Below are positions 1,086-60,300 of a stretch of DNA of 64,000 bases, piece after piece. The position numbers and the translations under genes were made by a program. The stretch is from Pleodorina starrii (taxonomy: Eukaryota; Chlorophyta; Chlorophyceae; Chlamydomonadales; Volvocaceae). Under the pieces are notes generated by a model. It was not told where the DNA came from. It was given only the letters and a program-made list of their open reading frames with translations, and did no database searches. How positions within the stretch are numbered: position 1 is the stretch's first letter; each line of letters begins with the position of its first letter. The stretch is taken from positions 434,001-498,000 of the forward strand of contig BRXU01000037.1 in the NCBI GenBank assembly GCA_030267565.1, read 5' to 3'.

Positions 1086-4000
1086 CTACGACGTCGCCGC
1101 CGCCGCGGCGGTGGGGAAGGGCAGCACGTTCACCCCGCGACACCACTCCACGAAGCTCGCCGCCGCTGCCGCCGCCTGCTTGGCCTGCGCCGCCGGCAGA
1201 CCCGCCGCCGCCGCCGCCGCGCCGCCCTCCCTGAGCTGCTTCGACAGTTGCGCCGCCACCGCCTGCCCCAGCTGCTGCAGCTGCGGATGCTGCAGCGACT
1301 GTTCGGCGTAGGCGTCCCGATGCACCGGGATCAGTCGGGCAGCCAGAGACCCGACGCCGGCCTGCGCGCCCGGCGCCAGGACCACCGACGGCACCGGGAA
1401 GCGACCCACGCCGCCGGAGGCGGCGGCGGCGGCGGCGGTCAACGACGACGACGCCACCGCCTGCAGCGCCGCGGCGAGCAGCGCCGGCGACAGCTCGCCG
1501 CCGGCGGCGGCGGCGGCGTCGCCGTTGTGGCCGTGCCCCGGCTCCTCCGTCGGGCTGACCAGTACGGCAGTCCCGACGTCGAGCAGCAGCGGCGCCGTGC
1601 GCGCCATCACCGCCGCCAGGCTCACGCACGGCAGCGCCACGAGCTGCGGCGGCGGCGCCGCCGCCGCCGCCGCGTCAGCGCCGCCGCCGCCACCGCTGGC
1701 TGCCGGCGGCAGTACCGCGTAGAGCTTGGGCGCCATGGCGCGGTACGCGTCCACCCAGGCGGCTCGCAGCAGGGCGTTGAATCCGGAAAGGCGCGCGTCG
1801 CTGTCCCACAGGCCGTGCGCGGCCGCGGCCGAGGCGGCCGAGGCTGCGAACAAGGTACCCGGCGGCGGCGGCTTGGGCGGCCCCAGCAGCGGGCCCCGCT
1901 GGAAGTGGTACAACGCGTACGCCAGCGGCATCAGCTCGGGGGGCCACTGCCAAGCCTTGCGGGCGCCGATGCCCAGCACGCCGCGGCGGGCCTGGATGGG
2001 GTGGGGATTTGAGGGGTTTGGGGTTGTGGGGTATGAGGGGTTGTGGGGTATGAGGGGTTGTGGGGTTTGAGGGGTTGTAGGGTTTGAGGGGTTGTGTTCT
2101 GGGGAGGGCGAACTGGGGCAGTGGTACTGGATTGGAGGTTGGGGGCGCGGGTGGACGTTTTGCACGTTGTCATCATGTCATGGTTTCGGGGAGCTGGCCG
2201 TACCTGGGACGTGACGTCATCCGCCGCCGCGCCGTGACACATAACCCCCTCAGCCACACTCCTCTGCCTTGCTCCCTTCGCCTTAGTCTGTCAGCCTATC
2301 CGCTCCTGTCCCTTCGGATTATCCACACCCCCACACACGCACCCAGCCCCGCACCCCGGTCCTCCCGACCCCGCAACAACCCCCCCCCCACACACACACA
2401 CACAGCCCCCTCCCAGAGTCCCAGTCCCCCCCAGCCCACCTGCACCTCCTGTCCGCAGCGAGAGGCCACCAGCCCCAGTTGGGCCGCCACTGCGTACCGC
2501 ACCTCCTCAGCCTTGCGAGCGTCCCTGAGCACACCCAAGGGGGGGGAGAGGGTTGAAGAGTGAATTTGAAGAGTGAATTTGCAAGGGGGGGCCGAATCCG
2601 CGGCGAGGCGAGGAGACGGGGGGGGGGCCAGGAAGGGGTGAGGCGAGGAGACGAGGGCGCGCTATCACGGCCAGGGGTAAAAAGAATATACCAGGCCAGG
2701 GGTAGGGCCCGCCCCTAGGGTGGATCTAGTTGGCAGACACGCCACATGCGGGCGGGCAGGCAGGTGCACCCGCCGGAGGAGTTCACGTCCAGGGAGGGAG
2801 GGCGCTGTGGAGGGCACTGCGGACGGCAGGTGGGGCCACAGGCCCACACGCCCCGATAAGCTTTTCCCTTAAGCACCTTTTCCGTTCCCAGCTCCCCACG
2901 CCCCCAGCCCTGGTTCCGTTCGGCTTCTTCTCTATTACCCCAGCAGCCCCAGCCCCAGCCCAACCCTGCCCCTCACCTGAACGCCGCCGCCTTCTTGGCC
3001 TCCAGCACCGCCCGCTTGCCCAGCAGCGCCGCCGCCGCCGTGGGGTTGACGGAGCGCAGGAACTCGCCCCGGCTCTCCACCACCGCCAGCCGCCGGGTCA
3101 CCACACGGACCACCCGGCAGCGAGCCACCGGGTCCAGCCAGTGCAGCGCAACCTGGGGGAGCGGGGCGGGGGGGGGCGGCAGGGGGGAGGGGAGCGGGGG
3201 TCATCCACGTTTAGCCCCGAGCCCGTAAACGGTAGGGGGAGGGGGGGGGAGCGGGGGAGCGGGGGTTATCCACGTAGCCCGGAGCGGGGGCGGGGGTTAT
3301 CCACGTATAGCCCGGAGCGGGGGCGGGGGGCGGGGGAGCGGGGGGAGCAGGTGACGGAGAGGGAGGGGGGGTTGGGAGGGAGGGAGGGAGGGAGGGAGGG
3401 AGGGAGGGAGGGAGGGAGGCGGTTGAGGGGGTCAGGGGTGGAAGGAGGGAGGCAGGGAGGCGGGGAGGCAAGGAGGCGGGGGGGGGCGACAAGGGGAAGG
3501 GGGCAGAACAATGGTGGAGCGCGGAGTCGAGACAGCGCCGCGCGACGCCCGCCATCACCACCGTCACCATCACCACCACCAGCACTACCACCGTCACCGC
3601 ATAACTCGCCTGCAGCAGCACCGACGGCACATCGTCCAGGTCGCGAGTGACCTCCAGTCTCAGGGAGGCGCAGCGACCCGCCTCCAGCGCCGCCACACCG
3701 CAGGCAGACGGGGAGAGACGGTAGGGACCGCCACCGCCACCGCCACCACCACCGCCGCCACCGCTGCTGCCGCCGCTGTTGCCCGCTGCAGCGGTGCCGG
3801 ACGCGGCTGGCGACGGCGCTGCCGTGCCGGGGGCGGCGGTGGCGGCAGCCGCCGCGGGCACCGCCGCGGGGCCCGTCTCCAGGTCGACCTGCGGTCGTAG
3901 GTCGGCGGTCGGGTCGTGTGCAGAGAGGGTCAATATTTCAGGCGGGAAACGGCCATGAGCGCCATGAGCGCCCATTAGTGCTGTTGGCGCCGTCAAGAGC

Positions 4001-5300: not shown

Positions 5301-5391
<91 letters not shown>

Positions 5392-5392
5392 G

Positions 5393-5929: not shown

Positions 5930-8900
5930 GGTGGTGAGGGTGAGGGGGAGGTGAGGGTGAGGGGGGTGAGGGGGAGGTGAGGGGGTGGTGAGGGTGAGGG
6001 GGAGGGGAGGGAGGGTGAGGGTGAGGGGGTGGGTGAGGGTGTGGGTGAGGGTGAGGGGGAGGGGGTGGTGAGGGTAAGGGGGAGGTGAGGGGGGGTGAGG
6101 GTGAGGGTGAGGGGGAGGTGAGGGTGAGGGAGGGGGTGAGGGGGAGGTGAGGGGGAGGTGAGGGAGGGTGAGGGTGAGGGAGGGGGTGAGGGAGGGGTAA
6201 TAAGAACGGCCCGGGGCGAGGGAGGGGGTGAGGGAGGGCGTGAGGGGCGGTGAGGGCCAGGGAGGACGGGAGGTGGAGGGACAGCGGGTGGGGGGGGGGG
6301 GCAGGGTTGGAAGGAAAAGGCGTGAGTGGGGCAGAGGGGGAGGAGGCGCAGGCCACAAGGAGGCGGTGGCTTGGCGGGGCCTTCGTGGGGTGTGGTTTGG
6401 AGCGATAGGGAGTTTAGGGGGTTCCAAGGCTGGTTGGGGTGGCACGACGGCCGACTGGCTGGCTGGCCGACCAGAAAGAGAGAGGGGCTGCAGGCAGACG
6501 GCGGACATTGCCCGGAGGGGAGGGGGGGTCAGGGAGTGATACGCTCCATTATATAACATGAGACACTGCGGGAGGAAGGGGGCGCGGAGGGGGGGGCTCA
6601 GGCGGCACTGTCCAACACGCCATGTCCGTCCACTCAGCGCAACGGCGGCTGTCACAGCAGCAGCAGCAGCAGCAGCAGCAATAAAGAAGCGATAGCGCAG
6701 CGGAGGGACGTGGGCGGCTGTTACAGTGGGGTAGCGGTCCAAAATGCCGGGCAGCAGCCCTGCGCGTGTCCTTGCCGCGCTCTCCTCCAACACCCTCTTG
6801 TGTCCCCTTGGCCCCCTGTGCACCCCTGCCAACCTTGGCCCCCTGCACCCCTGCCCACCTGTCCCCCTGCACCCCTGCCCACCTGTCCCCCTGCCCCCCG
6901 GACACCCCAACCCACCCCACCCCGCCCCAGCAGCGCACTACTCACTCGTGAAAATGTCCACCGCCACGCCAATCTTGGCTGCCATGGCCCCCAGGGCCAC
7001 ACCCACGTCCAGGGCGGCGGCCAGGGACCGGGCCTCGGGGCTGCGGCCCTTCTCAGGGACGGCCTGCGCGGGGGGGTAAGCGGTTGATCGGTTGGACGTT
7101 GGTGGTCGGTTGGTTGGTTGGTTGGAGGGGACATGGGCTGCGTTCGGACTAGCGCGCCTTGCCGTTGATGAGGGGTTACGTTTGAGGGGCGCCGCGAACC
7201 GACCAAACGGCGCACCGCATCCGAATCCGAACCGCAGCCAATCCAACCCAATCCAACCCATCTCTCGAGCCGGTGTACCCTCCTATTTAGAAAAGGCGCC
7301 CAGGGCCCATCCCCTCCGTAAACCATCAGGGAGGCTGCGGAGACAAACCGCATGCCGCCCAGCCCGTCCCCCGCAACCAACACCACCGCCAACCAACCGC
7401 CGCGGACTCACCCAACTGCCCAACCAACCCACCAACCAACCACCCCATCCACCTGATCCAACAGCTCCAGGGGCACCGCGCCCGGCCCGCGGGTCGCCGG
7501 ACCGCCCGCCAGAACCACGACCCGGCTGCCGTACAGGTTGTGGTGACGTGTCAGGTCCAGGGCGGCATGTGCTGCGATGAGGCGGAGGGCCGCCTCCACC
7601 GCCGAGCAAAGGCACCTGGCGGCGATTGAGTGCGTGAGTGCGTGAGTGCGTGAGTGCGTGAGTGCGTGAGTGAGTGAGAGAGAGTGAGTGTGTGTGTATG
7701 TGTGAGAGAGAGAGGCCTGATTGGAATGTCCTTCTCTCTCCCATTTCCCCCCCTCCCGCCCCCCCGTTTCATTCTTGCAGCAAATTCACTCTTCAAACCC
7801 CCTCCGCCTCGCCCCCCCCCATCCCACCTGGCCCTCGCCCTGGGTGGCTGCACATCCGACTGCACCGTCCGCAGACTGGCCAGTATCTTGGGCAGCTCCG
7901 ACCCACACGACCCCAGCTCCGAAACCAACGCGCCACCACCACCGCCGCCCGCCTCCCAACCGCCACCGGCGCGCCTGGCCGCCGTGGCGGCGCAGTGCCG
8001 ATCCAGCAGCTGCTGTACGGCAGACTGGAGGTCCAGGGGGGTCGAGGAAGAGGAGAGCGGCGGAGCCGTGCCGGCGCCGCCGGCGCCGCCGGCGGCAGGA
8101 GCTGTGGCGGTTGGCAGCACGTGGCTGCAGCGCTGCGCGCCGAGGTTGTGTACGGCAACGCAGCCGTCAAAGGTAATGAGGGAGACCAGGGTGTTGGGGG
8201 GCAGGGGCAGGCCCAGGCCTAGACCCAGGCCGCTGCCGCCGCTGCTGCTGCTGCTGCCGCTGGTGGTGGTGGTGGTGGTTAGGAGGGCGAGCAGTGCCTC
8301 CCGTACTGCCTGCAGGTCCCCCGGCTCCAGGGTGGTGTCCACTGCAAACACCAGGTGGTGGTGGTGGTGGTGGTGGTGGTGGTGGCCGGGGCCAGAGGAG
8401 GAGGAGGGCGGGGGTGGTGGCAGGGCGGGGGCCAGGGGGCCGGAGGGCGGCAGTGGGGCCACGTACTCCACCGCCTCGGAACACAGCTCGGGGAGGGCCT
8501 ACGTGGGGGGTGTGGGGGGAGGGCGAGGGGGGAAGGCGAGAGGGCGGATGGGGTCGTTCAAGGGGGCCGGCGGGGGGTTGGGGGGGAGGGTCTCAGGGCG
8601 AGGGTGTAGGGTACCAGTACCAGTACGAAGCCCCCTTATCCCCACTCTCATCCCTCCGCCTCTTGTCTTCCCTGTCCCTACGTCTTGCAGCCTAGGGAGG
8701 GAGCTCCCCGCCTCACTCGGCCCCGCACTTCCCGCCCCCCCCTCCCCCGCCGCGTCGCCGCCGTTAGTTTTGGGTTCCACGTATTCCTTCGTGTCTTTCA
8801 TTCCCTCAGGCTGACATTCGTTCCCGACCACTAACACTTTTTGCTTCGGATCCGCTGCTTCCTGCTGCTTTCCCTTTTCTTGCAGGTGAGCAAGCCATCG

Positions 8901-11816
8901 TTCCTTTTGTGATGTCCGGGCTGTGTGTCTGTGTTGGTCTCGTGCTGTCGTGTGCCGGTCCGTCTGGGGTTGGTCGGCGTCGACGCGGCCGCGCGCTCGT
9001 TTTATTTCTGCTGGAAATATCAGGTAATCCTCAGGTAATATCCCAGGTAACTGCGTTGCGTTCCCTCGCCCCGGGCCGTTTCAATTACCCCCACCACCAC
9101 CCTCTGCCTCCCCGCCTCCCAGCTCTCACCGCCACGTCCGTTGCACCCCCTAGTTGGTCCTTGTGGATGTTGACTCCCCCGCACATGTTGCACTTCCACA
9201 CGCCCTTGGGTAGGTTGGTCTGGGGGGGGGCAGGGCAGGGAGGGCGGGGAGGGCAGGTTGGTCTGGGGGTAAAAAGAAGATACGGCAGCGGAGACGGAGA
9301 CTCAGGCAGGCAGGCAGGGCGGGAGGGCGGGAGGGCAGGTTGGTCTGGGGGCAGGCAGGGCGGGAGGGAGGGAGGGGCCAGGCGCAGGGGACGCGTGCCA
9401 AGGAGGGAGGAGGAAGAGGAGGCGAAGGAGCACAGCAGCTGGGCAGAGCGCCGGATTTGCGGATTGAAGCGACAGCGGCAGCGGCGGGGAGGACGGTGGA
9501 TGGGCGGTGAGGCCTGGAGCTTCATTCGGTAACAAGCTTTGCCTGCTGCGCAGCCAAGCGAGGCTTCCTGCGCCGCTCAAAGACCCGGTCTGGGCCTGGC
9601 CACCTCAATTACTCCGCGGCTGCGCTTCTTCTCTCCTTAACCCCCCTTCCCTTCCCCCTCCCCCCTTGCTCCACCTGTCCCCTGCCCTGGCCCTCGAGCG
9701 TCGGCAGGAGGAAGGACTGACCGCTGCCACAGCCCCAGCCGCCGCCGCCGCCGCAGCCCCAGCCGCAGCCCCAACCCCAGCCACGGCCGCAGCCACAGCC
9801 CCAGCCGCCACCGCAGCGCGTGGCCGGCGCCTGCAAGCGCGGCGCTGTCTCGGACCCGGCCGCCTTCAGCTTCCCCCCTTCCCCCTCGTTCCCCATCCCC
9901 CGCCCCAAACCCCCACCGCCGTCTCCGTCCCCCCATTGCGGTACCTCCTTCATTACCCGCCCCCCAGCCGCCTACATCTACCAGAGCCACCCCCGAGACA
10001 CCCCCGCCCAAACGAACCCAACGAACCCCAGAACCCGCAGTCCCCCGACCCGCAATCCCCTCTGCCTACCCTCTTTACAACCCGCCAGCCCAAGCCACCC
10101 GCAGCCGCTCTCCCCTCACCCTCACCCTCCCCCTCGCCCTCCCCCTTACCTTGCAGTACACGTTCAGGAATGCTGAGCAGCCGTTGCACCTCAGCGGCTG
10201 GCGGCATGCTGCTGGCACCTGGGGCAGGCGGAGGGCGCTGCTGGGCTGCAAGTCCAGGTGGGCGCCTAGGGGCACTCCGCAGGTGTTGGCGAAGCCGCGC
10301 TGGTTGACAACCTGGGAGGGAGGGAGGGAGGGAGCAACGGAGGGAGGGAGCAACGGAGGGAGGGAGGGAGCAACGGGAGAGGGACGGAGGCAGCGGAGGG
10401 ACGGAGGCGAGGGGGGGAGGAGGGGGGATTGTGATAAGTGCCATGCAATGCGAAGTTGAGGGGGGGAGGTGGAAATGGGCGGGCGAGCAGGGTGCGGATA
10501 TGGGAGGAATCGCCTTCAGGTGTGCCTGGCGACAGCCCACGCCGCTCATCTGGTAACGCCCCCCACCCCGGGATCTGGGCCGTGTCGATGTTGTGGCCAC
10601 CTTTCATTTACTGTTGGACATCGTTGATTTCAATTATTGTAGGACATCAATGATGGCTCCATTCTGGATTCTGGTTGGTTCATATCTTTAGGAGGGGGTT
10701 GAACAGGTCATTCCGCCGCACTTAAGGAGCCGAGTCAACGTCGGCTAACGGACGCAGCCGGCGGATGGAGGACGCGGGGAAGGGAGGACGCGGGGGAGGG
10801 AGGGAGGTAAGGGGGGAAAGGGAGGGAGGGAGGGAGCGGGGGAATGAGAGTGAAATGCGCCATTGGTGAGGTGCAAGGGGGTTGTTGTCTTGGGAGTGCA
10901 ATGCGAAGTTGGTTCGGGTCGCCGCAACCAGCCCCTGAATCACCCAATGAAGTCAAGATGTAGGCAAGGCCAGATCATAAAACCAAAATATTCGCTGTGG
11001 GAAAAATGCGGAACCAGTAGTCACAATTAATCCTTCGAAGTCCCTGTCTCCCGATAGCTTCCGGGGGATAAGAAAGATGCTACCAGGGAAGGGGGAGGGA
11101 AGCGGAGAGGGAGCGGTTTTTGGGTTTTGTTCAGTTCAGTGGTTTGTTGCGGGGGGGTGTTGAAGGAGTCCTACAAGAGAGGAAATGTGTCTTTGGTGGG
11201 AGCGGACTGTGACCGGGCGCCAGGAGGGGGTAAGGTGGGGGATTTGCTGGAGATATCATGGGGGTTATGAAACAGGAAGCTTGCTTAGAGGCCGTGCTGC
11301 CAAAGGCTGAGGTTGCGCTGAGCGGAGGAGGAGGTGGCGGCGTGAGAGCCCGAGTAGGGAGAGGAACGGTACAGGAAAGCGAGGACAGGGGCGGGGATGA
11401 GCCATGGCTGCACGTGCGTAGGGGCTTGTTAGGAACAGCGGGCTGCGCATTAAATAACGGCCACGTGTGCATGCACTTGCAGGTACATATATTGTATTTA
11501 CACTGACGACTATGGCCTTCACCGCTTGCGTGTTCCATGCCCGCTGATCACACAACAGCAACACACCTTCACGGAACTTGAAGCAAGCCGCAAACCCACG
11601 TATCACTATCAACGCCTACGGCTATGCAACTGACATCCGGAAGACCCAACTTACGCAGCTAGACACCAGCGTAAGGACATGGTCCGCAGGTGCAACAGTC
11701 ACGGCAGGCTGCGCGGGCGACGACGCCATAGCCGTTTGTTCTTTCGGAAATGGGACACGTTGATCCGGTCTAGCCACTGGAGGGGCCTCGCTGACGGCAG
11801 GAGGAGGAGTGGTCAT
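1086..11816 (-). CDS. SEC23-like COPII coat protein, 11 exons, 1084 aa
   Basis: Exons in transcript order: 11816-11655, 10311-10150, 9219-9130, 8498-7828, 7615-7453, 7063-6946, 5217-4787, 3888-3598, 3152-2977, 2524-2440, 1991-1086. They sum to 3255 nt with every phase matching. The start ATG is 11816-11814 and exon 1 ends at a perfect GTAAGT donor. A Sec23/24 zinc finger (C96, C99, C118, C121) is split over exons 2 and 3. The trunk begins in exon 4 (AVDTTL, SLITFDG) after a run of ten His. The beta-sandwich is in exons 7-8, the helical region in exons 9-11, and the gelsolin-like end in exon 11 (FQRGPLLG, ARLIPVHRDAY, EWCRGVNVLPFP). From memory, the ending best matches the plant SEC23-like subgroup typified by Arabidopsis AT4G01810 rather than canonical Sec23. 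Family role: inner COPII coat at ER exit sites. Alanine- and glycine-rich inserts are common. Confidence 0.85.
2001..2097. repeat. GGGGTTGTG-type minisatellite in the last SEC23-like intron
   Basis: Roughly 17-base imperfect units built on GAGGGGTTGTGGGGT lie just inside the 3' splice site of the final intron (1992-2439, transcript on the minus strand). Confidence 0.8.
5222..6240. repeat. About 1 kb (GGGTGA)n satellite inside an intron
   Basis: Near-continuous GGGTGA units, interrupted by runs of GGGGGA and GGGGG, fill most of the intron between SEC23-like exons 6 and 7 (5218-6945). The transcript reads it as (TCACCC)n. A long Pro/Ser/Thr frame on the minus strand through this tract is only a translation of the repeat; coding resumes at 5217. 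The G-rich strand has obvious quadruplex potential. Confidence 0.95.
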
Positions 11817-12270: not shown

Positions 12271-15200
12271 ATGCAAATCACCGTGACCACGCCAGACGGG
12301 GAGCACGTCTTCCCAATTGAGGTGCGGCAGGGCTCGACCTGGGCCCCGCGCGTCCGACTGCCGCTCTTTCGGTTGGTCTCGCGCATGGAGAACCCTCGGT
12401 GGAGCGCTGCAGACAGCTGCGTAATAGCCCATGCGTACCAGCTACTCATGCTTCCGGCGAACAGCTCTTGGCTCAGTTGCCACGTAGGTCGACGCCGGAA
12501 CTTCTTTCGCGGACATCAAGGCAATCTGCGAGGTGGAGACTGGCGTGCCGTCGGCCTCATTTGTCCTTGTCCACAACAACCGACCGATCCTGGACAGGTC
12601 AGGACACTCCGAATGTGCTTCGATGTGGACCTCTCGGCTCCGAGAACCGCGTATGCGACTATGATTGTATTCTGGGGGGAAGAGAGGCCGGGGGGGGGGG
12701 TTCGCAGGTGTCTCGCATGAAGTTCCCAAACGGTTGTTGCCCTTGCGCCGTCTACCAAACTTGTGATTCCCGGCCATCTTTCACACCACCTCATCTGGGT
12801 TCCTTCGGCCAAGGCCTTTCGGTCCCTCCGCAGCCCCCATCCCCGCACATCTCACCGTCGTTCGTCCGCCGCTTTGCCGGCCGCACCCGCCCTTCCCCCC
12901 CTTCCCCCTTTTCCCCTTCTCCCCCCCCCCCAGCCTCAACCACACACCGCTCTCACACCCATCCGCCTACCCGTCGCTGCGCTATCAGTTTTCTTACCCC
13001 CGCTTTCCCTCCCCTACGTTCCGTAACTATCGGGCGGCAGAGATTTGACTCGGTCGTACAGGACGCCAACAGCACGTCTTACTTGTTACAGCCCTTCTAC
13101 TTATCTCTCTGGACTGCTCAACAAATGGGCTACATGGTTTCCCTTCTGTTATCTTTTTGTTACCTGGCGGCAGCCAACCGATCCGATTTCGCATTGCACA
13201 TACACAACACCCCCCACCCCCACTCCCCATACACACACCTGTCCTCTCCCCTAACCTTCTTCCCCCCGCCCTTCCCAGTGTCTTATGTTATATAATGGAG
13301 CACATCCCCCCCTTCCTCCCCCTCCGGCCTATACGTGGATAACCCCTCCCTCCCCCGCCGGCCCCGCTGCACCGCAAGCAGCCAAACGCCCGCCACTGCC
13401 GGCGTGCAGCCCGGCGACATGATCATTCTGGTGCAACCAGCCCAGCTGGCCCAAGCAGCCGCGCAGCAGCAGCAGCAGCAGCAACGTCGCGGCGCAGGCG
13501 CAGGCGCAGCAGGTGCCGCCCGCGGCGGCGGCGGCGGCGGCGGCTCTCCGCTGCTGGAGCGCCAGGCCGATGGCAGCCTGAAGAACCCCGCTGCCGCCAT
13601 TCAGGAGCTCAAAGGGAATCGGGAGATGATGGACGCGTTCCGGGTGCAGGCGCCGCGGCTGTACGACGCGATCATGGCGGATGACGTGGCGGCACTGCAG
13701 GAGGAACTGCGGCGGGCGCACAAGTGAGCTGCGGGAGGGGGGGAGAGGGTTGCTAGGAGGGGGGTGCTGGGTGGGGGTGCTGGATGGGGGGTGCGGGAGG
13801 GGGGGAGTGCGGGAGGGGGGGGTGCTGAAGGGGGGGTGCGGGAGGGACGGAGTGCGGGAGGGGGGGAGTGCGGGAGGGGGGGAGTGCGGGAGGGACGGAG
13901 TGCGGGAGGGACGGAGTGCGGGAGGGGGGGGTCAGGGAGGGATATGCTCCATTATATAACATGAATTACTGCGGACGTTGTTGACCTAGCTGCTGCGGAC
14001 GATAAGCCTCCGTGACTGCAAATATAAACCCACCCGTCCCGATACGTTACCGAGGAGGGGGTGCTGGATGGGGGGGTGCTGGATGTGTGTCTTATGTGCA
14101 GTGCGACGGGGCAGTGCAGTGCAATGCGGCGAGGCGAGGTGAGGCCAGCCATGGCGATAGAAAGCGGGGGGAGGGGGGTGTGCATGCAGATATGAGGGGC
14201 AGGGGAGCTGAGGCAGGTGTGTATGTATGTGTGAGGGGGAGGGGGTGGAGGGTACGGGGAAAGGGGACGTAGGTTTAAGAGTGCGGTGCGATTGTTGGTA
14301 CTGCGACGGGTGGCAGCAACCAGAGCCGCCGCCTACATGTGGCTGAACCATACAGCGGGCGGGGGAGGCAGCAACCAGAGCCGCCTGCAGGACGACGTAC
14401 CAGGGGAAGGGGAGGGGGCAGGGAGGGAAAGAGCGGGGCCAAGCAGAGGAGGGAGGGAAGTCGAAGGGGGTCAAGGGGGGTTCGAGGAATGGGAACCGCA
14501 GCGCTGGAATGGTGGAGGGGGGGGCGGGTGTGCTGGAAAAAAGGGGGAGCCGGGCGTGAGGGTTGGGCTCAGGGAAGGGGGGAGGTTGGGGGGGTTCGGG
14601 CTAGGACAGAGGCCGAAAAGCGGGGAGGACAAGGAGGGGGGAGACGGGGACTGCCCCGCTGACACAACGCCGCGGCGGGTGGGCATTGGTGGTCCTGCCC
14701 TCAATCCCCGCCCCCCACACTGCCTTAGAACTCCCGAACTCCGTAAACAAAAACCCATTCTCCTCCTTATCCCCCCTCCTTGTCTTGCGCTCTTTCCGCT
14801 TGATCGGGTGGCTGCATCCAGTAACCAACTTCGCATTGCACGTTTACGCACATGCACTTTTGCACACCCCATCATCCTTCCCCTGATCTGATCCCCTGAT
14901 CTGATCCCCTGATCTGATCCCCTGATCTGATCCCCTGATCTGCTCCCCTGATCTGCTCCCCTGATCTGCTCCCCTGATCTGCTCCCCTGATCTGATCCCC
15001 TGATCTGATCCCCTGATCTGATCCCCTGATCTGATCCCCTGATCTGATCCCCTGATCTGATCCCCTGATCTGATCCCCTGATCTGATCCCCTGATCTGAT
15101 CCCCTGATCTGATCCCCTGATCTGATCCCCTGATCTGATCCCCTGATCTGATCCCCTGATCCGCTCCGCTGTGCTGTGCTCCCCTCCGCTGTGCTCCCCT

Positions 15201-18200
15201 GCCTCAGGGCCCAGCACCAGCACAATGAGGAGCTGGAGGCGCTGTATCGGATGCAGGAGGAGGACCCATTCAACCCAGAGCTGCAGGTGGGGGGGTGGGG
15301 GGGGTATGGGTGTGCATGTGTATGGGTATGGGTGTGGCGGGGGGGTGAGGGGGGTGAGGGCATTCCCCGGGGGGGGCAGGATAGGCCGCAGCCAGCCCCG
15401 GGGGGGGGACTACCGAAGGGAAGTACGTAATACGTGCGTAACGGGTGGCGGGGGGTGAGGGCATTCCGGGGGGGGCAGATAGGCCGCCACCACAGCCCGG
15501 GAAGTACGTAGCGCAGTCGGAGGTCTTTCCGGGGATGTGATTGTGGATGTGGGGGAGTGTGCCCCGGGAGCCGGGGTGTGGGGGGGCCCGAGGGAGAGAG
15601 GGAGAGAGGGAGGGAGGGAGGGCGCGAGGGAGGGAGGTTGAGAGGGAGGTAAAAAGAAAATACCGCAGCGGAGGGAGGGAGGGAGGGGCGGGCCTCGCGC
15701 TTCCCTACTGTGGCCGCGACGGACGCCCGACCGGCGCGAACGATCCATCCCCCACCCACCGCTCGTCACTCATCCGCCATCAGCCCTGTCTGGATATGCT
15801 GGTGACCTATCCAGGGGGGGGGCGCTGGTCGCTGCAACCGGATCCAGATCCAGATCCAACGACACGTTCCACCTTACGAACTTTTTAAACCTTGTAAACC
15901 TCATAAACCCTCTGATAAAACCTCTGATCCCTCCAAACCCGCCAGGCCAAGATTGAGGATGCTATTCGCAAAAAGAACATCGACGAGAACTACGAGGCGG
16001 CGATGGAGCACAACCCGGAGGTGGGTGAGAAGGGAGGGAGGGAGGAGGGGCGGAAGGGGGAGAAAGAGGGGCGGAAGGGGGCGGGAGAGGGGCGGAAAGG
16101 GGGTCAGGGAGTGATATGGAGGTGGGCGGCACGGGGGAGGGAGGGAGAGGGGAGGAGGGGCGTGAAGAGGGGCGGAGTGTGGCTCGAGCGTGGGGTCGCG
16201 GGCGGGGGGGTGCTTGGGGGTGTTTGGAGGGGGATATGGCATCGTGTCATGTCGTTCCCCGAGCGGCTGAGGGGCGAGCTCGATCTGTGCGGTGGAGGGC
16301 CGATGGGTTCGATGGGGTTTAGGAGGGGGGGAGGAGGGGAGGAGGGAGGAGATGGCTATTATGGGTTTGGGGGCGGCGTGACACGTTTGTTTTTTGAGGG
16401 GGGGGCGGGCCATACGCCATCCGCCCTACCCACCTCATAACTCCATTTCCGTTTACCGTACACACACATGTTCTACGGCTTTCCACTCCCCACTCCCCTT
16501 CCCTTTACCCGCTCCCCGTACCCAACTACCCACCCCAGAACTTCATTTCCGTACACATGTTGTACGTCGAGATGGAGGTCAACGGCGTTCACGTCAAGGC
16601 CTTCATCGATAGCGGTGCTCAGATGACCATCATGACGGCGCCCTTTGCGGAGAAGTGCCACCTCACCCGACTGCTGGACGAGCGGTTCAGGGGTACGGCG
16701 GTGGGGGTGGGCTCGTCCAAGATCCTGGGCAAGGTGCACCAGGTGAGACAAAGTCACCGGGGGGGAGGAGGGGAGGGGGGGAGGGGGAGGGGGGAGGGAA
16801 GCACGGGGGAGGGGGGAGGTAAGCACGGGGGAGGGGGAAGGGAAGCACGGGGGAGGGGGGGTAGAGAAGCCCGGAGGGGGCGAGAGAAGCTGGGGGGAGG
16901 GGAAACATGTGTAGCAGGGGTGTAAGAGAAGCAGGGAAGGAAGCAGGGGGGGAGAATGAGAAGCAGGGGGGAGAAAGAGAAGCAGGGGGGGAGGAAGAGG
17001 AGGAAGGAAGGGAGGAAGGGAGGGAGAGGTGGGGAGAAGGGGAAGTGAGATTGGTCGGTCATTCGTTACCGGTACACATCCCCCCACCCACACATAAACA
17101 CACATCGATACACAACCCATACACACACCCCATACGCATATCACTCCCTGAACCCCATACGCACACCCCATACACACACTCCATACACACACCCCACACA
17201 CACACCCCACACACACACCCCACACACACACCCCACACACCTTCACACTCTATAAAGGAGCACATCACACCCACACACCCCCACACTCTCCCCCGCCCTC
17301 CCTCCCTCCCGCCCGCCCGCCCCCTCCTGCTTCAGGCCAAGATGAAGGTGGGTGACCAGGTGGTGACCTCCTCCATAACGGTGTTGGAACAGAAGACCGG
17401 TCCGCAGTTCATTTTCGGACTGGACATGTTGAGGAGACACCAGTGCTGCATTGACCTGGTGAGGGGGGGAGTGGAGGGGGTTGAAGGGGGAGGAGGAGGG
17501 GGAGGAGGAGGGGGAGGGGGTGGATGAGGGGGAGGGGGGAGGGGGGTGATGAGGTGGAGAGGGGCGGGGGAGGAGGGGGGCGGGGAGGAGGAGGGGGGGA
17601 AGGGCAAAGGGGGAAGGGGACCGAAAGCGGTGGGGTTGAGGAGGAGGGTGAGGGGGAGGGCGGTGGGCGCGAAACGGCAGCTACGCGCTCCCCCTCCTCT
17701 CCGGGGCCCCCTCCGCTTCACCCAATCAAAAAGCGCCCCGCGCCCCGCCGCCCCCCCCCCCCTTCCCTCTCTCGCTCCTTTCCCCCTCCCCCCGCCCGCT
17801 GGCCACCCGCCCTCCTCCCCCCTGTAAATTGCTACTTCAAACGCTTCCCACCTTTGTTTACATCCCGCACCCTCCCCAGTCGTCTCCGTCCCTCCGCTGC
17901 GGTATCGCCTTTAGTTACCCCCCTCCTTATCCCCCACCCCCCACCCCCCCTCCCACACACACACACACAAACAACACACAAACAACACACAACCCCCGAT
18001 CCCGTCCCCCCACCCTCCGGCGTTCGCTAACGCCGTCTCCGTCTCCGCTGCGGTATCATTTTTTACCCCCCACCCGCCCCCCCCCACCTGCTGCTACTGC
18101 TGCTGCTGCTCAGGCCAAGGGTGTGTTGCGCATCGGCTCCTGTGGAGTGGATCTGCCCTTCCTGGCTGAGGGCCAGATCCCGACCGACTTCTCGGCACAC

Positions 18201-50700: not shown

Positions 50701-53700
50701 TTCGGGTTGGCGCAGACTCCGGTTGGGGTCGGCGCCCTTCAGCGGCCCGGGGTGGTTTCAGGGTTGGGGAGGTGGCTGCTGAAGGCTGCAGCAGAGGATG
50801 CCCCTCTCTCCCCCCCACACACACTTTAGAGTCGAGGTCGGCGCTGGGGGTAAAAAGGACGAAACCGCAGCGTCGTAGCGGAGAAGGCGACGTTGGCGCC
50901 CCGGGTGGGATGGGGAGTCTCGTAGACCCCGGTGTTTCAGGAGATCATCCAATGGCCGCCGTGCCGTCCCGCCAGGCTGACATCCCCCACCCTCCCTCAT
51001 TGATATATTAAGGAGCATATCACTGCCTGACCCTCCGCCCTCCTTCAGGCCATCGGTCTGGACATCGCCGTGCCATCCCGCCACGCTGACAACCCCCACC
51101 CCTCCCCTCGCCCTCCCTCAGGCCATCGGTCTAGACACCGAGTCTGCCGCCAACATGTCGGGCGCCGCGGGGGAGGAGGGCTCAGCGGACGACGAGGACT
51201 ACTACGGCGACCTGTACGACAGGGCGGCGGCGGGCTCGGGGCGGCGCGGCGTTGAGGAGGTGTTCCTGGACTCGGCCCTGGACTCGGGGCGGGGCCTGCT
51301 GGGACTGCTGCTGCGGGTGCCGTTCAAACCCAAGTTGCTCGAGGTGCTGAAGCAAGGTACGGCAGGGTGGGTGCGCGGCTGGTGGGCTGGGAAAAACGGC
51401 CCGGGGCGAGGGAACGCAACACGCAGTTACCTGGGAACTTACCTGATGATTACCTGGTGGGCTGGATGGCTGGGTGGGCCCAGGGGGTAAAAGGTACGAG
51501 CCGTAGTGGTGGTGACAAGAGGCGACGACGGTGCAATAGGACCCAGCAATGCTTCATCAAACGCACGTACCTGTAATAACCCCGGGGGGTCCGGTGGCTG
51601 AGCAGCTACGCCTTGAATCTTCCGTCTGGCATTGCTCCCCCCCTGGAGCGCCCTTGCAGCCTTGCTTGTAAGTTGCGTTCGCTCCCAGTCCCGTCCCTTG
51701 CGCTCCGCTGCCATCGCAAACGTCCGCTGCCTTGCCGGGCATACGGTCCTATGCGCGAGGCGCGACGCGACCGCATTGCCAACCACTCCCCCCCGGCTCC
51801 CCGCCTGTTCCTTCACTGCGATTTCTTCGTCTCCATTTCCCGGCCCGCTGCCCGTTCCCTGCCTCCGCTGTCCGCTCCACCACCTGAATCAGGCTACACG
51901 GCGGACGACCTGCGTCGCGATGTGCTGGCCGGTGTGGTGGTGGGCGTCATCGCTCTGGCACTGGGCATGGCGCTGGGCATCGCGTCGGACAGCACTCCCG
52001 CCATCGGGTGAGGGGGTTATCCACGTATAGGCCGGAGCCCGTGAGGGGGGGGGTGAAGAGAGAGCGTCGAGGGACAAGGCGAGGCGAGGCGGGGGGCTGA
52101 TAAAGAAGATACCGCAGCGATGGGACGGGGGGTTGAGCGGGTGGAACGATACAGCCGAAACCGCAGCGATGGGTGTGCGATGGGCGGGTGATGGGGTGTG
52201 ATTTTCGAGGAAAGACAGCGCCCTTGTGGTTAGGGCGCTGTGTCTCGTGCGTGTGTGGGCGCTTTTTGATGTCCCGGAAGAAAAGCCACCCGTAAGCTGC
52301 CCCAAGCGGAGGATCGCGGGGAAGGCTCTTCCTTCTGAAAGGATGTCCCAGGCTCCCAGCCCAGGATGGCTCGCTGGGGTACGACTCTTCGCCGCTCCCC
52401 AGACGACACCAAACCCACTTCGCCGCAATTCTTTTTTTTTATCCCCCCCAACAGCGTCCGTAGTGTCCCACGGTTATATAAACGAGCATATCACTCCTTA
52501 CCCCCACCCCCCGGTTATATAATGGAGCATATCACTCCCTGAACCCTCCCCCCCACGGCCACGGGCTCCGGCCTATACGTGGATAATCCTCCCCCCCGGC
52601 CGCGCTGCACCACCCCTGCACCTGCACCTCCCATCTCCCCCATCCCATCCCCCCCATCCCATCTCCCCCATCCCATCCCCCCCATCCCATCTCCCCCATC
52701 CCATCCCCCCCATCCCATCTCCCCCATTCCATCCCCCCCATCCCACCTCCCCCATCCCATCTCCCCCATCCCATCCCCCCCATCCCACCTCCCCCATCCC
52801 ACCTCCCCCATCCCACCTCCCCCATCCCATCTCCCCCATCCCACCCCATCCCATCTTTTTATATAAAGGAGCATATCACTCCCTGATCCCCCATCCCATC
52901 TCCCCCAGGGTGTACACCGTGGTGGTGGGCGGTCTGCTGGCCTCGGCCCTGTCGGGCTCGCGTGTCACGGTGGTGGGCCCCACCGCCGCCTTCATCCCCA
53001 TCGTGGCGGGCGTGGCGCACGCGCACGGGCCCGCTGGCCTGGTGGCGTGCACCGGCCTGGCGGGGCTCATGCTGCTGGCCATGGGCGCAACCGGCATGGG
53101 CGGTATCATTCGGTGGGTGGGCGGGGGCCTGGGGGCTGGGGCGCGGGCTGGGCTGGGCTGGGCTGAAGAAGGCCATGCGTGGCTGGGTGACGCGTGACGA
53201 AGCGTGGATGGAGGGGCCTTCAGGGAATGTATATGACGCAGCGCATGGGGGGCGGCAAGGGGTGCATTACGGTGCGCAGGAAACGAATGTAGTAGCGGGC
53301 GGCCGGGCGCGGAAGAGACTGGAGCGGAGGGCTGTTGCGGAGGAGGTTGTAGCGCGTGGGAAGCTCCTTTCGCAGCCGCTTCCCTCAAAAAACCCTCACT
53401 CAGCCTCAACCCGCATCGCTCCGCATCGTTCCGCGTTGTTCTCCCCCTCGCGGGCCACGGATGAGGGCTGTCACCTGCACTAGCTGCAGGCCTGAAAGGC
53501 AGGCCTTGTCGCGCTCGCTGAACGTGTCGTGCCGTATGCCCCCCGTGCCGCTCCTCGCCGCACGCAGCTACGTGCCCAAGCCCGTCGTCACCGGCTTCAC
53601 CGCGGGTATCGCCACCTACATCTTTGGGACGCAGGTGAGAGCCGCACCCAGCGAACTCCACCCACCCGCACCCCGCCCCTCTTAACGCCGTCTCCGGTTC

Positions 53701-54354
53701 GCTGCGGTATTTCCTTTTTACCCCGCCCACCCGACACCCGCACCCCGAACTCCACCCACCCGCGAACTCCACCCACTCGACACCCCCACCCCGCCCGTCC
53801 GCACCCCCGCCCATCGCGCTTGTTGGCAAGCCACCGTATGTGCGGAAAAACAGACAGCCAAAGCAGACAGGCAAGGCAAACAGGCGCGCGTGACAGGCGT
53901 GTTTTCATCTACGGTACATGCGGCAGCTTGCCCCACAGCCCCACGCCTACCCGATCCCGACCCAACGCCCACCCTGACCCCACAATCCTGACGTGTGCGT
54001 ATCCCCTCACGTGTGCCCTCAACACCAGATCAAGGACTTTCTGGGTCTGGGTGCTCCCGGGCGGCTGCCGGAGGGGGTGCCGGTGCCCACCGAGTTCCTG
54101 GAGAAGGTGGTCTACCTGGGTGAGCACTGCCGTACATGGGCTGCAGGGTAGGCCTGTAGCAATAATAGGTAGCAGTCGGGCTGGGTTTAAGACCCTGAAC
54201 AACCCTGACCCGGTCTTGTTCCCTCTCTTTATCTGTCATATCAGCACTTATTTGATTTTGTGATGCCTCTGCCCGGATTTGCTTGCGGCGCCTCTGTCCC
54301 ATCGCTGCGATTTCATCTTTACTACTACCCCCCGCCTCGCCTCGCCTTGCCCCT

Positions 54355-54394
<40 letters not shown>

Positions 54395-57300
54395 CCTCCT
54401 CTCAGGCAGCCACCTGGACGCGGCGCACGTGCCCTCGGTGGCCATGGCCCTGGGCTGCCTGGTGCTCATCAAGACGTGGCCCAAGGAGTGGGCAAAGGTG
54501 GGTGCGCCATAGCGAGCGGCTGACAGCGCAAGAGAGGCGGCGAGCGAAAAATTTAAGGATGGGACAGGAATGGGACAGGACGAGCGGACAGGAATGGGAC
54601 GGACGTCCCGTGTCATCTGTCATGCCGTGTCGTGTCGTGTTAGAACTTAGGAAATGCAAGGCCAGGGTGCCGAACGCCCGCAGCAGCAGCAGCAGCAGCT
54701 GGCCGCTCGAGCGCCAGGCACGCGATGCGGCCGCATCCTCAGGCAGGCAGGCAGGCAGGCGTGAGCGCAGCGCCCGTCTCGCACGCCCCTGCCCTGCGCC
54801 TTTCTCCTCCTTAAGCGCCCCAGCCGCGCCCCAGCCGCGGACGCGGACGCAGATTTAGACGCAGGGTCCCCGCATTAGGTACCTCTTTTTCGCCGCGCCT
54901 CCACGCTCCAGTGCAGCCCTCTTTGTCATCCAAACCACGCACGGTGTCCCACCGCGGACGGCCCCCTTGCCTTCCTCCCGCCCGTCTCGCCTCTCGCCCT
55001 CTCTGCCTCCCAGTCTCCCCAACATCGCCACCCAAACCTCGCTGCGGGTCCATTTTTATACATGAACATGAAACCCTCCCCTCGCTCGCGGTAGAAGCAT
55101 GCTCAACAACGTCCGCAGGGGCTATCAAGGAGCACGGAGCAAGGAGCAAGGCGCAAGGAGCAAGGAGCTTACCACTCCCTGACCCCTCGCTCGCCTCTCC
55201 TCCCCTCGCTTCGCAGGTTGTCCCCACGCCCATCGTGGCCATCGTCGCCGGCACGCTAGGTCTGCAGCTGCTGCAGCTGGCCAACCCGGGGATGGAGCTG
55301 GGCATCGAGACCATAGGGACGCACTTCGGGGCGGGCGCCATCCCGAGATCGCTGCCGACGCTGCAGTGGCCGCAGGGCCTCAGGTGCGCGCGTGCGTTTG
55401 GGGGTGCGCGCGAGTGGGAGGATGGGGGGGACGGTGAGGGGGCGATGGTGATGATGAGGGGCGAGGGCGAGTGCTGCCAGTGCTGCGTTGCCCGGCGTAT
55501 GGGCAAAGTGGCAAAGCGCTCTCACAACTCACATGGTCCTGGACTCCTGCTCCACCTGGCGCTCGCACGACCCGCTTATCCCCGCCTGCCCTCTCGCTGC
55601 CAGTGCTGCGTTGCCCGGCGTATGGGCAAAGTGGCAAAGCGCTCTCACAACTCACATGGTCCTGGACTCCTGCTCCACCTGGCGCTCGCACGACCCGCTT
55701 ATCCCCGCCTGCCCTGCCGTGCCCTGACCTGCCCTGTCTGCTGCATCTCACTCGCAGCAAAGCCTGCGTCCTGGCGTCGGTCATGAACTCATGATGCAGC
55801 GCCTCGCACGTGCCTCCGCCCTCCCGTCGCCGCCTGTCTGCCCTGCCTGTCCCCTCCCTCCTTTTTCATCTCTCCTCTCCGCTCCTGCTCCGCGTTGCCT
55901 TGGCCCCTTCCCCGTTCACTTCCCCGCCTGTCCGATCTGCCCGTGTACCGTATCCATCTTCCTGAACACCCACCCAACCACCCGCCCACCATCTTCACTG
56001 ACATCCACACACACACCCATCCACCCACCTGCCATGCGTGCTTCCACCCATCCACCCACACACACACCCATCCACACACCTGCCATGTGTGCTTCCCCCC
56101 CCCCGTTCACGGGCTCCGGCCTATACGTGGATAACCCCCCCCACCCCACCGCCCGCCCTCCAGCGCCTCCGACATTCCCGGCCTGCTGTACCCCGCCGCC
56201 ACCATCGCCATGCTCGCCGCCATCGAGTCGCTGCTGTGCGCCCGGGTGGCGGACACCATGATCGGCGACAAACACGACTCGAACACCGAGCTCATATCCC
56301 AGGTGTGGGTGGGTGTTGGTGGGGGGGTTATCCACGTATAGGCCGGAGCCCGTGAACGGTATCGAAACAGAAGAATCCGTCCTGTCTGCAAAAGAAAAAA
56401 CGAGGTAAACTTGCAAACAGCAAGGGCGTTACATGCAAACCGAGATATTGTAGCGAGTCCGAGTTGAGCCGCCGCCGCGGGGGGGAGGAGCAACCGGGCA
56501 GGGAGGGAGGATGTGTGCGGAGGGGCGGTGGGTGACGTGGGCAGGAAAGGCCGGCGGCGACGCGGGTGCCCTGCCGTGTTTGGGGTTGTGGATCTGGGGT
56601 GCGCGTGCCTAGCGCCATCCGCCGGCTCGCCTCCTTGCTCCGTCTTACGTGACCCTCCGTACAAAAATGCCGTACCTACGCGTGCGTGGCTGGACTCACA
56701 CATCTGCGCCGCTCGCTGCCTCCCGCGCTTTCGGCACCACTCAGCTGCGATTCCTATTCCATATCCCTCGCCGCCGTACCGTCGTTGCGTGGCTTGTTCT
56801 CTTCTGCATTGGCGGCGCTGCCCCTGCCCCTGCCGTCGCAGGGCATCGCAAACCTGGGCTGCGCCGCCTTCGGCTGCCTGCCCGCCACGGGCGCCCTGGC
56901 CCGCACCGCCGCCAACATCCGCGCCGGCGGGCGCTCGCCCGTGTCGGGTCTGGTGCACGCGGTGACGGTGGCCGCGGTCATCCTGGCCGCCGCCCCCGCC
57001 GCCGAGTACATCCCGCTGCCGGCGCTGAGTGCGGTGCTGGTGGTGGTGGCTCTCAACATGGGCGAGTGGCACAACTTCCAGCAGCTGCCAAAGTGTGAGC
57101 ACGTGTGTGCGTGTGTGTGTGTGTGAGCACGTGTGCATGTGGGTGGTGGTGGTGGTGGTGGTTAGCAGGGGGGTTTATCCACGTGAAGGCCGGAGCCCGT
57201 AAACGGTTCAAGTAACAGAAGAAGTGGGGGTTAATGACACAAGATACCGCAGCGAAGCAGGTGATGGGGGAGGGTGGTGGGTGGGTGGTGAACCTTAGGG

Positions 57301-60300
57301 ATAATCTTCAAAGGCAGGCCAGCCAAGCGCTCGGCACTAGGTGTGTGTGGGGGGGGTAGGGGGATGTTGGGTCGAGGAGAGAGAGCGTATGACAGTCCAG
57401 AGAGGCGAGCTGATACGGTAGGCTGACAGATGCAATGGGGAAACGTCCTGAAGTACGAACCGCAGGTCAGGAAGGGAAGCGACGCTGGCCAACGGGCCAA
57501 CGGGCCAAGCAACACGTCTTGAAGTTACCTGTGACCTTACCGAGATTGTGGGGTGGTGGGGGTTGTGGGATCGTGGGGCTGGGGCTGTGGTTTATCCGGG
57601 AGTAATACCGGTAGGTACGCAGGGGCCCTCAAGAGGCCCCGCTTCCGTCCCCCTTTCCTTCCTTCCGTCCTTCCGAGCGGCCTGCAGTCCCCCGCGGACA
57701 CTTAACGCGCGGCGTTGAAGAGTTGCGACGGGTAATGCGGAGGCCGGAATGACACGTGTTTCTAGCTGCTGCTGTTGCTGTTGCTGCTGGTACTGCTGCT
57801 ACTGCTGCTGCACCACAACCTGGGTCCGTCGATGCGCTCGTCTCTCGGTTGCGTTGCCTGCTGCAGCAACCGCCTGCAGCAGGCAACGCCCACTTTCCCT
57901 CTCACGACCCCTCCGCCGGCCCTCAAACCCTAAAACCCCTAAAACCCACAGGGCCCCAGAACGACGCGCACCTCTTCCTCATCGCGTTCAGTCTCACGGT
58001 GCTCCAGGTACGACACATGTGTGTGCGTGTGGCGCGGGCGGGCGGGTCCGTGGGCTGTGCCGCTGCTGCTTCTCCTGCAATTGCTCTTGCTTCGCCAGCA
58101 ACGCTTCAAAAGCAAGCTCACGTGAGCGCGGGGGCCGGTATCTGGCACAAGGGGGCGGTTCCAGGAGGCTGGATGGCGTCACTAACAACGCCCGCATCCC
58201 AGCTCTTTTGAGTATCGCACCCCTACACGGACTCGAGCCCAACGAAGCCCTGCCGGCCTCCGCCTCTCTTCCCTCTTTTTCATCTATCGTATCTCCATCT
58301 ACCCCCGGACAGGACGTGGCGGTGGCGGTGGCGTTCGGCATGGTGATTGCTCTAGCGGTGTTCGTGCAGGTGAGCGGGGGGCGGCCCGGATGGGGCGGGT
58401 GTGGGGACGGGTGGACGGGGCGGATGGGTGGACGGATGGAGGGGAGATGGGCAGATGGGGGCGTTGGGCGGGGTTGGGGCGGATGCCGATGCGCTGCGGG
58501 CTGACTGCGGGGCAGGGCAGGGGTGCCGCGCACTGGGAATGTCATCTCTCCCGTGCGCGCACTCGTGCACGTTCCGTTGCTTACTTCTCCAGGCGTTTCC
58601 TGGTCGCTGCTGGCGGCAACCCCCCTAAACGCATTGCACTCTTGGACCCTAATCGAAGATGCAACTAGGGTTTTCAGGGTTTCAACAACCCTGAAAACCC
58701 TAAAATCATAAAAACCCTGAAATCCTGAAATCTCCGAAATCTGGCCAAGCCAAGGACCACAGCATTATGCCAGGACACGACCCAAGATTCAACCTTGCCC
58801 CCATCCTTGAATACGGTGACCGCAGGACGTTTCGGCAACCATGTACGTCCGGGCGCTGCCGCCGCGGTCCGTCGTAACGCCGCCGTACCTCGACCCAGCC
58901 GCAGCGTTCGACGTCGACGTCGACGCCAACGAGCCGTACCGCCGCCGCGACGCCGCCGCGGCCCTGGCCGCCCGCCGGGCCAGCAGCGGCGAGGAGGAGG
59001 AGGAGGTGGAGGGGCCGATGCCGTCTGCCGCGGCGGCAGCGGGCGGCGGCGGCGGCGCGGGTCTGTTGGCGGGTTTGCCGCTGGGCTGCGTCGTGCCGGC
59101 GGGCACGGTGTACGTCGAGGTACGGCAGTGCAATGCAGTACAGTGGCGTAATGTGATCTGCGAGGTGTTGGGCAGCAGGGGCGCAGGGAAGGCCGAACGG
59201 GCGGTCCGGTCCTGTCCGGCCTCCGGCGGTTGTTTCGCGGCCCTTGGCGGCCAATGAGGTAGTACTCCTGCTCTCCTGGCCGCCTTCCTGCACTGCTGAC
59301 GCTGACGCAACGCAGTGCGTTCCGCCAAATGTCTCCTCCTGACTTGCATTCCAGCTTCCGCATTCCATATCCTGTCCTAATCCGCTTGCTGCTTCCGTCA
59401 TTCCTCACCCGCCTGCGCCTGCGCCTCCGCGTCCGCCTGCGGCTTCGCAGGTCACCGGCTCACTGCTGTTCGGAGCGGGCGAGGTGCTGGAGCGCGTGGT
59501 GGAGACGGAGGGCCAGGCCGCCAACCCCGGCGTCGATCAGGAGCCGGTGCAGGTGGGCGGGGAGGGCGGAGGGCGGGGGGTAAAAAGAAAATACCGCAGC
59601 GGAGACGGAGACGGCGGGGGGCAGGGGGCAGGGGGCGGGGGGCGTACGTCCTCCTGGCTCTGCTTGGTCGACGGCCAACGGCCAGCGGTCCCGGTCATCG
59701 TGCGAGCGCTCCCCATCCGAGCACCTCGACACGTGAAAGGGTGAAACCCGAGCCTCTTCCGCCTTCCCATCCCTCCCGCCTTCTCTCCCGACCCGCCTTG
59801 CCCTTTCCCGCTCGCTGCGGCCTGACTTTGCTTTTCCCCTTCGCCCCCTTCGCTCTCCATCCATCCATCCATCCATCCACCCACCCATCCATTCACATCA
59901 TCCCTTGTTATACCGTATAAAGGAGCATATCACTGACCTGTCCCCTGTCCCCTCCCAACAACACCCACACCCACATCCACATCCACATCCACACATGCTT
60001 GCTTGCCTGCCCGCAGGTGCTCGTGCTGAACATGTCCCACGTGAGCGTGGTGGACGTCAGCGGTCTGGAACTGCTGGAGGAGGTTCACCGCCGACTGGAG
60101 CAGGCGGGCAAGACGCTGGTGCTGTGCGGCCTGACGCGGCAGCCGCTGAGGATGATGGCGCGGGCGGGCTTCCTGGACGAGGCGGGCAGGGAGAACGTGT
60201 GCCGCAGCGTGGATGCGGCGTTTGCGCGCGCCACCGCCATCGTAACTGCGGCCAACCGCGCCAAACAGCAGCAGGAGGCGGCGGCGGCGGCGGCGCGTTC

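Follow-up and report, generated by a model that had tools for sequence, protein, structure and literature searches.

Retrotransposons without long terminal repeats (non-LTR retrotransposons) that target microsatellites were reportedly described by Kojima and Fujiwara in 2004. Such elements (PMC4640811), the short interspersed nuclear elements (SINEs) of Chlamydomonas, and the introners (PMC9860276) are the described systems closest to the sequences of this study. For Chlamydomonas, the element listing of PMC3747384 gives SINEX-1 to -6_CR, paired with RandI/Dualen or L1 long interspersed nuclear elements (LINEs). Here, we analyzed a window of 64,000 nucleotides of the volvocine green alga Pleodorina starrii (contig BRXU01000037.1, positions 434,001 to 498,000, i.e., C37:434001-498000 of a genome searched over 136 Mb and 95 contigs), in the introns of which several short sequence modules, designated A to E, recur on both strands. 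Modules A, B, C, and E are probably 5'-truncated copies of several short non-autonomous SINE-like retroposon families with a C-run as insertion target, their orientation likely being set by the strand of the C-run and not by transcription itself.

Like the SINEX elements, the modules are short non-autonomous units with a fixed 3' end, found in a related alga. While the SINEX ends listed in PMC3747384 are (ATT)n, (CTTT)n, or (A)n, module ends differ between families and mostly abut C's; SINEX-3, -5, and -6 are listed there as tRNA-derived and the origin of the others as unknown, whereas the module copies examined revealed no tRNA-like head. With the microsatellite-targeting non-LTR elements, as treated in PMC4640811, the modules share a simple-sequence insertion target, but they use a C/G tract, are largely intronic and non-autonomous, and mostly stay under 60 nt in our sample. 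Introners, as outlined in PMC9860276, are likewise repeated intronic elements close to splice sites in an alga; unlike these, the modules displayed neither a boundary duplication nor two complementary ends in the introns tested. The modules work like a SINE with a simple-sequence target. Among the matches listed in a search of open-licence PMC texts, no paper on C-tract retroposons in volvocine introns was present.

The genome-wide scan proposed by the initial annotation, carried out with up to three mismatches, resulted in 3770 copies of A, 2606 of B, and 1945 of C, compared with 2, 4, and 0 matches for the reversed patterns used as controls. Its count of 13 A copies in the window was reproduced, with 12 at up to four mismatches and one internally deleted copy near 3270 that is readable in flanking sequence; B, C, and E were also found in the window. 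Module D, which had been placed in the same set, proved to be a different and rarer sequence with three exact copies in the window and 104 genome-wide matches to the surrounding 18-mer at two mismatches (control 5), and no C-run starts immediately after any of the three copies in the window.

Taken in the orientation opposite to the donor form, the A unit is fixed at its 3' end and truncated from the 5' side. Among 52 aligned A copies (loci L001 and L019 being the same place), one end was common, while the other side was cut at variable points, usually followed by another run; in copies of donor orientation, a G-run mostly precedes the common end. In sense orientation, the constant 3' ends are ...CGTGGATAA for A, ...TTTTTACC for B, ...CACTCCCTGA for C, and ...CTTCAAA for E. 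Retained lengths of 58 sampled A copies had a median of 34 nt, with 47 copies of at most 60 nt and 9 of at least 300 nt; this sample was picked by a 20-mer, so that copies under 18 nt were undetectable, and six loci (L051-L056) were added for their long copies. Short copies were often joined to runs on both sides, and long ones aligned over hundreds of bases. With a 536-bp A query, all 40 scored copies (the best of 992 candidates) started at query positions 1-15; 11 of them stopped before position 500 and 29 reached within 6 bases of the end. When the sequence upstream of the longest copies was included, the start of 25 of 34 non-self matches fell at query positions 104-124, 18 of them at 119, and this shared start indicates a full-length A unit of 601 bp, which, as in SINEs, is too small to encode its own reverse transcriptase. 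The layout of B, C, and E resembled that of A as judged by eye in 15, 14, and 6 copies, respectively; the SINE-like combination of constant 3' end and variable 5' truncation was thus measured for A and seen in few copies of the other three. At C2:3657577-3657799, six A copies follow one another at exactly 40-bp spacing, so that an A copy is now part of a tandem repeat there.

Genome-wide, CCCC directly follows 877 of 1181 exact A 3' ends, and at least four C's were present within the first six bases 3' of the end in 53 of the 58 sampled copies. The 5' junction of truncated A copies lay in a C-rich flank in 40 of 55 cases. Using a direct-repeat score in which C matches were weighted down, 9 of 59 A copies scored at least 8, compared with a mean of 0.3 and a maximum of 3 in 500 permutations, and 8 of 35 B, C, and E copies scored at least 10 (mean 0.48, maximum 3, 200 permutations). 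Clear cases for A were found at L033 (48-nt copy, repeat of 16 bp), L047 (49 nt, 15 bp), and L054 (23 nt in a C-rich stretch, 16 bp), and for B at window position 9268 with a 23-bp direct repeat. As such repeats surround very short copies, some of these look like separate insertions. Target-site duplications of variable length, as known from SINEs, were therefore seen in a minority of copies, a few of them tandem artefacts. Together, the constant 3' end, the variable 5' truncation, and this minority of flanking duplications support the suggestion of the initial annotation that mobile elements have colonized introns.

The very small size of most sampled A copies, the 40 C-rich 5' junctions, and the joining of short copies to runs on both sides would also suit a capture during repair, in which breaks at G/C runs are mended via microhomology with short pieces of abundant RNAs or DNA and no dedicated retroposon machinery takes part. 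We consider this unlikely, since the single fixed 3' end per family in the aligned copies, the common full length of 601 bp, and the 15-16-bp direct repeats around the three short copies named above point to target-primed insertion instead.

For the position of the modules, 184 introns between 40 and 6000 nt in length were predicted by a gene model that was self-trained and run on both strands, the splice profiles of which cover only donor positions -3 to +6 and acceptor positions -4 to +2; predicted donors were mostly GTGGG, GTGAG, or GTGCG, and acceptors GCAG, CCAG, or TCAG. The initial annotation had stated that one form of each module sits on the donor side of introns and its reverse complement on the acceptor side. 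Among the 73 copies in complete predicted introns (both ends in view, duplicate locus L032 dropped), 62 agreed with this rule (P 6e-9). Only A was significant alone (39/43, Fisher 1.2e-7); C (10/12, P 0.25), E (5/5, P 0.10), and B (8/13, P 0.59) were not, B following the rule weakly. The constant end pointed along the locally C-rich strand in 71 of the 73 copies, including all 11 exceptions to the position rule, with C-richness taken from two stretches, 60-160 bases before and 12-112 bases after the 3' end, which in long copies include part of the element. Four of the 11 exceptions sit in a predicted 5.4-kb intron upstream of MAM33, which is itself probably intergenic because the P. starrii protein starts in the preceding exon. 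Of nine copies called intergenic, eight obeyed the C-strand rule (three of them weakly, with a skew of 0.04-0.08), and one was slightly negative. The first wording, that orientation follows transcription, calls for revision, given that both orientations occur in introns (54 copies sense to the transcript, 31 antisense, P 0.017) and the C-rich strand is the nearly fixed reference. Family C was sense to the transcript in 12 of 13 copies (P 0.003), more biased than A or B, a bias of which the target model gives no account.

The copies and features of the window are as follows (window coordinates, strand in brackets).

52017..52037 (-), A, donor form, constant end 10 bases into the SulP intron 52008-52908
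52566..52586 (+), A, acceptor form, in the same SulP intron
56114..56134 (+), acceptor-form A in intron 55384-56163, its constant end 30 bases ahead of the 3' splice site
56328..56348 (-), donor-form A with 146 nt retained in intron 56303-56841, its constant end 26 bases past the 5' splice site
57175..57195 (-), donor-form A in intron 57103-57765, its constant end 73 bases past the 5' splice site
21829..21849 (-), acceptor-form A in MAM33 intron 21818-22826, its constant end 12 bases ahead of the 3' splice site
13322..13342 (+), A, acceptor form, before a DDI1-like exon that starts at about 13382 by sequence; intergenic in the gene model
3297..3317 (-), acceptor-form A in predicted intron 3153-3558 of the SEC23-like gene; further A copies, diverged or deleted, lie at 3201 and near 3270
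24675..24803 (+), three A (24675, 24743, 24783) that all point the same way and are probably intergenic, 5' of MAM33; by the gene model, they break the position rule
59579..59598 (-), donor-form B in intron 59553-60016, its constant end 26 bases past the 5' splice site
53703..53722 (+), B, acceptor form near the donor, an exception already named in the initial annotation (as 53692); local flank C-rich, skew 0.41
18049..18068 (+), B with five mismatches (outside the 73 counted), acceptor form, intron 17459-18113
15648..15667 (-), donor-form B in intron 15287-15945, an exception that lies slightly closer to the acceptor
9268..9287 (-), acceptor-form B, an exception that lies closer to the donor; stretch of about 59 nt between the 23-bp direct repeats CCCCCAGACCAACCTGCCCTCCC
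2676..2695 (-), acceptor-form B with four mismatches in predicted intron 2525-2976
25003..25022 (+), B next to the three A copies at 24675..24803, probably intergenic
52478..52538 (+), two acceptor-form C copies, at 52478 and 52519, in intron 52008-52908
52863..52882 (+), acceptor-form C, 26 bases ahead of the 3' splice site
59917..59936 (+), acceptor-form C in intron 59553-60016
51007..51026 (+), acceptor-form C in predicted intron 50676-51121
17252..17271 (+), acceptor-form C in intron 16743-17335
13292..13311 (+), C with three mismatches, directly upstream of the A at 13322 and in like orientation
13936..13955 (-), donor-form C in intron 13724-15207
6533..6552 (-), acceptor-form C in predicted intron 4999-6945, an exception that lies closer to the donor
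2552..2582 (-), two overlapping acceptor-form E in predicted intron 2525-2976
7780..7797 (+), donor-form E in predicted intron 7616-7827
10444..10458 (-), D, one of three exact copies (also 10897 and 14826), outside the C-run class
13724..19074 (+), DDI1-like host gene, each of whose six introns (13724-15207 to 18247-19074) starts G-rich and ends C-rich

Where an intron held at least two modules, it carried one orientation only, or donor forms followed by acceptor forms, in 13 of 14 cases (0.7% of shuffles); cut introns and two of very great length are counted among the 14, and stacked copies within one intron are not independent. At L054, for instance, three A copies and one C copy stand in a row in a single orientation. 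Both A forms occurred together in one of 35 complete A-bearing introns and in one more (L033) that was cut by the locus end. This bears on the idea that the modules are remnants of inverted-repeat DNA transposons, with the two forms as the two ends of one element, a version of the inverted-repeat origin that the initial annotation had considered. Donor and acceptor forms are indeed reverse complements of each other, but they hardly ever share an intron, each copy has a single constant end, and its far end is a variable truncation where a second, complementary constant end would be expected, which makes this origin extremely improbable. Miniature inverted-repeat transposable elements and other inverted-repeat DNA transposons, with two complementary constant ends per copy, were accordingly rejected as a class.

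In a 173-kb gene-model sample (the window, its flanks, and C1:100001-200000, with the LTR element described below masked), 34 copies were intronic, 2 intergenic, and none exonic. Normalized to C/G runs of at least 5, this corresponds to 34/686 in introns, 2/122 in intergenic DNA, and 0/108 in exons. According to the initial annotation, copies equally common in intergenic DNA would argue against an intron-linked set; here the raw counts favored introns, while the intron-intergenic difference per run was nonsignificant (P 0.15), the exon-intron difference being significant (P 0.0095). The labels err both ways, because a DDI1-like exon follows shortly after the "intergenic" copies at 13292 and 13322, and some of the predicted introns that are very long may be intergenic. 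Module-bearing introns were longer (median 621 versus 382 nt), many of them coming from loci fetched for holding A; this fits a growth of introns by insertion, but also the larger target that long introns offer.

Several points weigh against SINE-like retroposition into C-runs. CCCC was missing after 304 of the 1181 exact A ends, and a run of at least four C's within 10 bases was present in only 6 of 15 B and 9 of 14 C copies. When repeats were scored by plain matches, 9 of 59 A copies reached at least 8 bases versus a shuffled mean of 4.8 (maximum 11), and 4 copies reached at least 10 bases versus 1.05 (maximum 4); this test failed to separate the copies from the controls because C-runs match by themselves, and the C-weighted score was devised after its outcome. 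Even with that score, 50 of 59 A and 27 of 35 B, C, and E copies revealed no clear duplication. Two or three of the nine A cases lie in tandem or nested A (3297, L005, perhaps 24762), and the eight B, C, and E cases include one that spans neighboring C copies (52497) and another with a minisatellite next to it (52882). Copies as short as these are unusual for LINE-driven insertion. ARAGORN detected no tRNA-like head in long A copies of five loci, though a degenerate promoter may be present, and long A copies of three loci gave no Rfam match. Nor did a LINE with a matching 3' end turn up, the tails of the candidate LINEs lying outside the sequence that was read. Finally, apart from those checked against proteins, the introns rest on the self-trained model without RNA data.

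The introns themselves displayed a mirror-like G/C skew. In 172 predicted introns of at least 160 nt, the first 100 bases contained G at a fraction of 0.447 and C at 0.191, and in the last 100 bases C prevailed with 0.443 over G with 0.181. Of 120 predicted introns without A, B, C, or E, G exceeded C on the donor side in 99 and C exceeded G on the acceptor side in 111, which argues that the skew was not made by recognizable copies alone. All eight protein-supported introns (DDI1-like, MAM33, SulP) were skewed at both ends. Given G-rich starts and C-rich ends, donor-side copies come to lie antisense and acceptor-side copies sense. A further idea, that the ends of A, B, and C together with the first C of the run form a branch point (TNAC), was rejected, as no clear branch-point peak was found in module-free introns and E does not fit.

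The complementary composition of the two intron ends is also what would be expected if complementary modules and G/C runs were selected to bring intron ends together for splicing, the second proposal of the initial annotation. In line with this, own ends were predicted to pair better than swapped ones in 83 of 130 introns (P 1e-5), with duplex energies of -83.9 kcal/mol for own and -77.9 kcal/mol for swapped ends. Letter-shuffled own ends still reached -81.7 kcal/mol; base composition thus gives nearly the whole pairing effect. As, in addition, a module rarely meets its complement within one intron, selected pairing appears quite improbable.

Another reading takes the modules for introners, i.e., for elements that created their host introns. 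Some copies do lie 10-30 bases from splice sites, and the donor string GTGAGGGGG is present on both sides of the A copy at 52017, at a repeat score of 6.1, which is below the counting threshold. Across 51 module-bearing introns, donor and acceptor boundaries resembled each other no more than permuted pairs did (4.20 versus 4.17), so that introners, as introns made by insertion with boundary duplication or inverted repeats, were rejected as a class for these introns. Moreover, A copies with a median of 34 nt sit inside introns with a median of 621 nt, and the skew is alike in module-free introns. We regard this explanation as very improbable. Altogether, the original observation is partly confirmed: it holds in most parts and far beyond chance, while the cause differs from the one proposed with it, which is supported in part.

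For the preferred reading, retroposition of SINE-like units into C-runs, the following course may be envisaged. A LINE endonuclease would nick the G strand of a C/G run and leave a primer ending in G's, from which reverse transcription would start at the fixed RNA 3' end and, judging from the retained lengths of A, mostly stop within 20-60 nt. The cDNA end would then rejoin at upstream C's, as the C-rich 5' junctions of truncated A copies suggest, and a staggered cut would give direct repeats that begin in the C-run, as they appear in the minority of copies described. Because the first about 150 nt of introns are G-rich and the last about 150 nt C-rich, both in predicted and in the eight protein-supported introns, the strand of the target would differ between the two ends. 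As the duplication would also copy the run, each insertion would re-create its own target, so that the next one becomes possible alongside; one-orientation stacking and growth of the intron would follow, and the order of modules in 13 of the 14 multi-module introns is as predicted.

Regarding a possible partner element, a profile search of the genome with Exo_endo_phos (apurinic/apyrimidinic endonuclease, APE-type) resulted in 385 candidates, of which 150 were scored, many of them in long LINE-like open frames, including families with frames of about 1543, 1589, 1263, and 3200 aa. RVT_1 gave 1045 candidates; the 150 scored resembled the reverse transcriptase of LTR elements in length. Exo_endo_phos_2 had one match, and GIY-YIG, included since Penelope-like elements occur in green algae, had five weak matches. 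C9:836042-859088 and C11:251943-274989 each hold an array of four open frames with an endonuclease, three of them 1543 aa and the fourth 817 aa long, at identical spacings of 7392, 7398, and 7483 bases; either LINE-like units are arranged head to tail here, or the assembly contains a single array twice.

Four of six predicted proteins of the window were assigned by Pfam, namely a SEC23/24 trunk protein (-), a DDI1-like aspartyl protease with UBA domain (+), MAM33 (-), and a SulP sulfate transporter with STAS domain (+). Within the 316-aa predicted MAM33 protein, a stretch of 258 aa is 100% identical to a P. starrii protein (next best Volvox, 76-80%), a comparison that omits the first 58 residues, mostly from a doubtful upstream exon, and the exon join lies inside the exactly matching stretch. 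The DDI1-like exon joins align unbroken with a Gonium protein (77% identity), and the join across SulP intron 56303-56841 agrees with a Tetrabaena protein apart from one gapped residue at the junction; these supporting proteins are themselves database predictions.

Further repeats were observed besides the modules. An LTR retrotransposon with 300-nt direct repeats of 100% identity (window 35202-35501 and 46025-46324) around a 3029-aa open frame (36786-45872) is likely a recent insertion. Minisatellites of 14, 13, and 14 nt lie in or beside introns at window positions 22321-22564, 14801-15242, and 52573-52889, respectively. At C1:1-200000 (L009-L028), 16-mers such as CCCTTTGAAGGCCTCA occur at tens of spaced places (sample of the C1 stretch and the window), which is possibly a subtelomeric repeat block.

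In a wider sense, the findings tie a target preference for C-tracts to the architecture of introns, and an insertion that duplicates its own target would be a concrete and testable driver of it. One may speculate, with considerable doubt, about a self-renewing ratchet of intron growth, in which C-tract retroposons copy the tract with each insertion, the G-rich starts and C-rich ends of introns thereby give rise to further targets, and the long, mirror-skewed introns of volvocine algae are largely the sediment thereof. An apparent rule that orientation follows transcription can stem from the target strand alone, which calls for caution in reading intron motifs as splicing signals.

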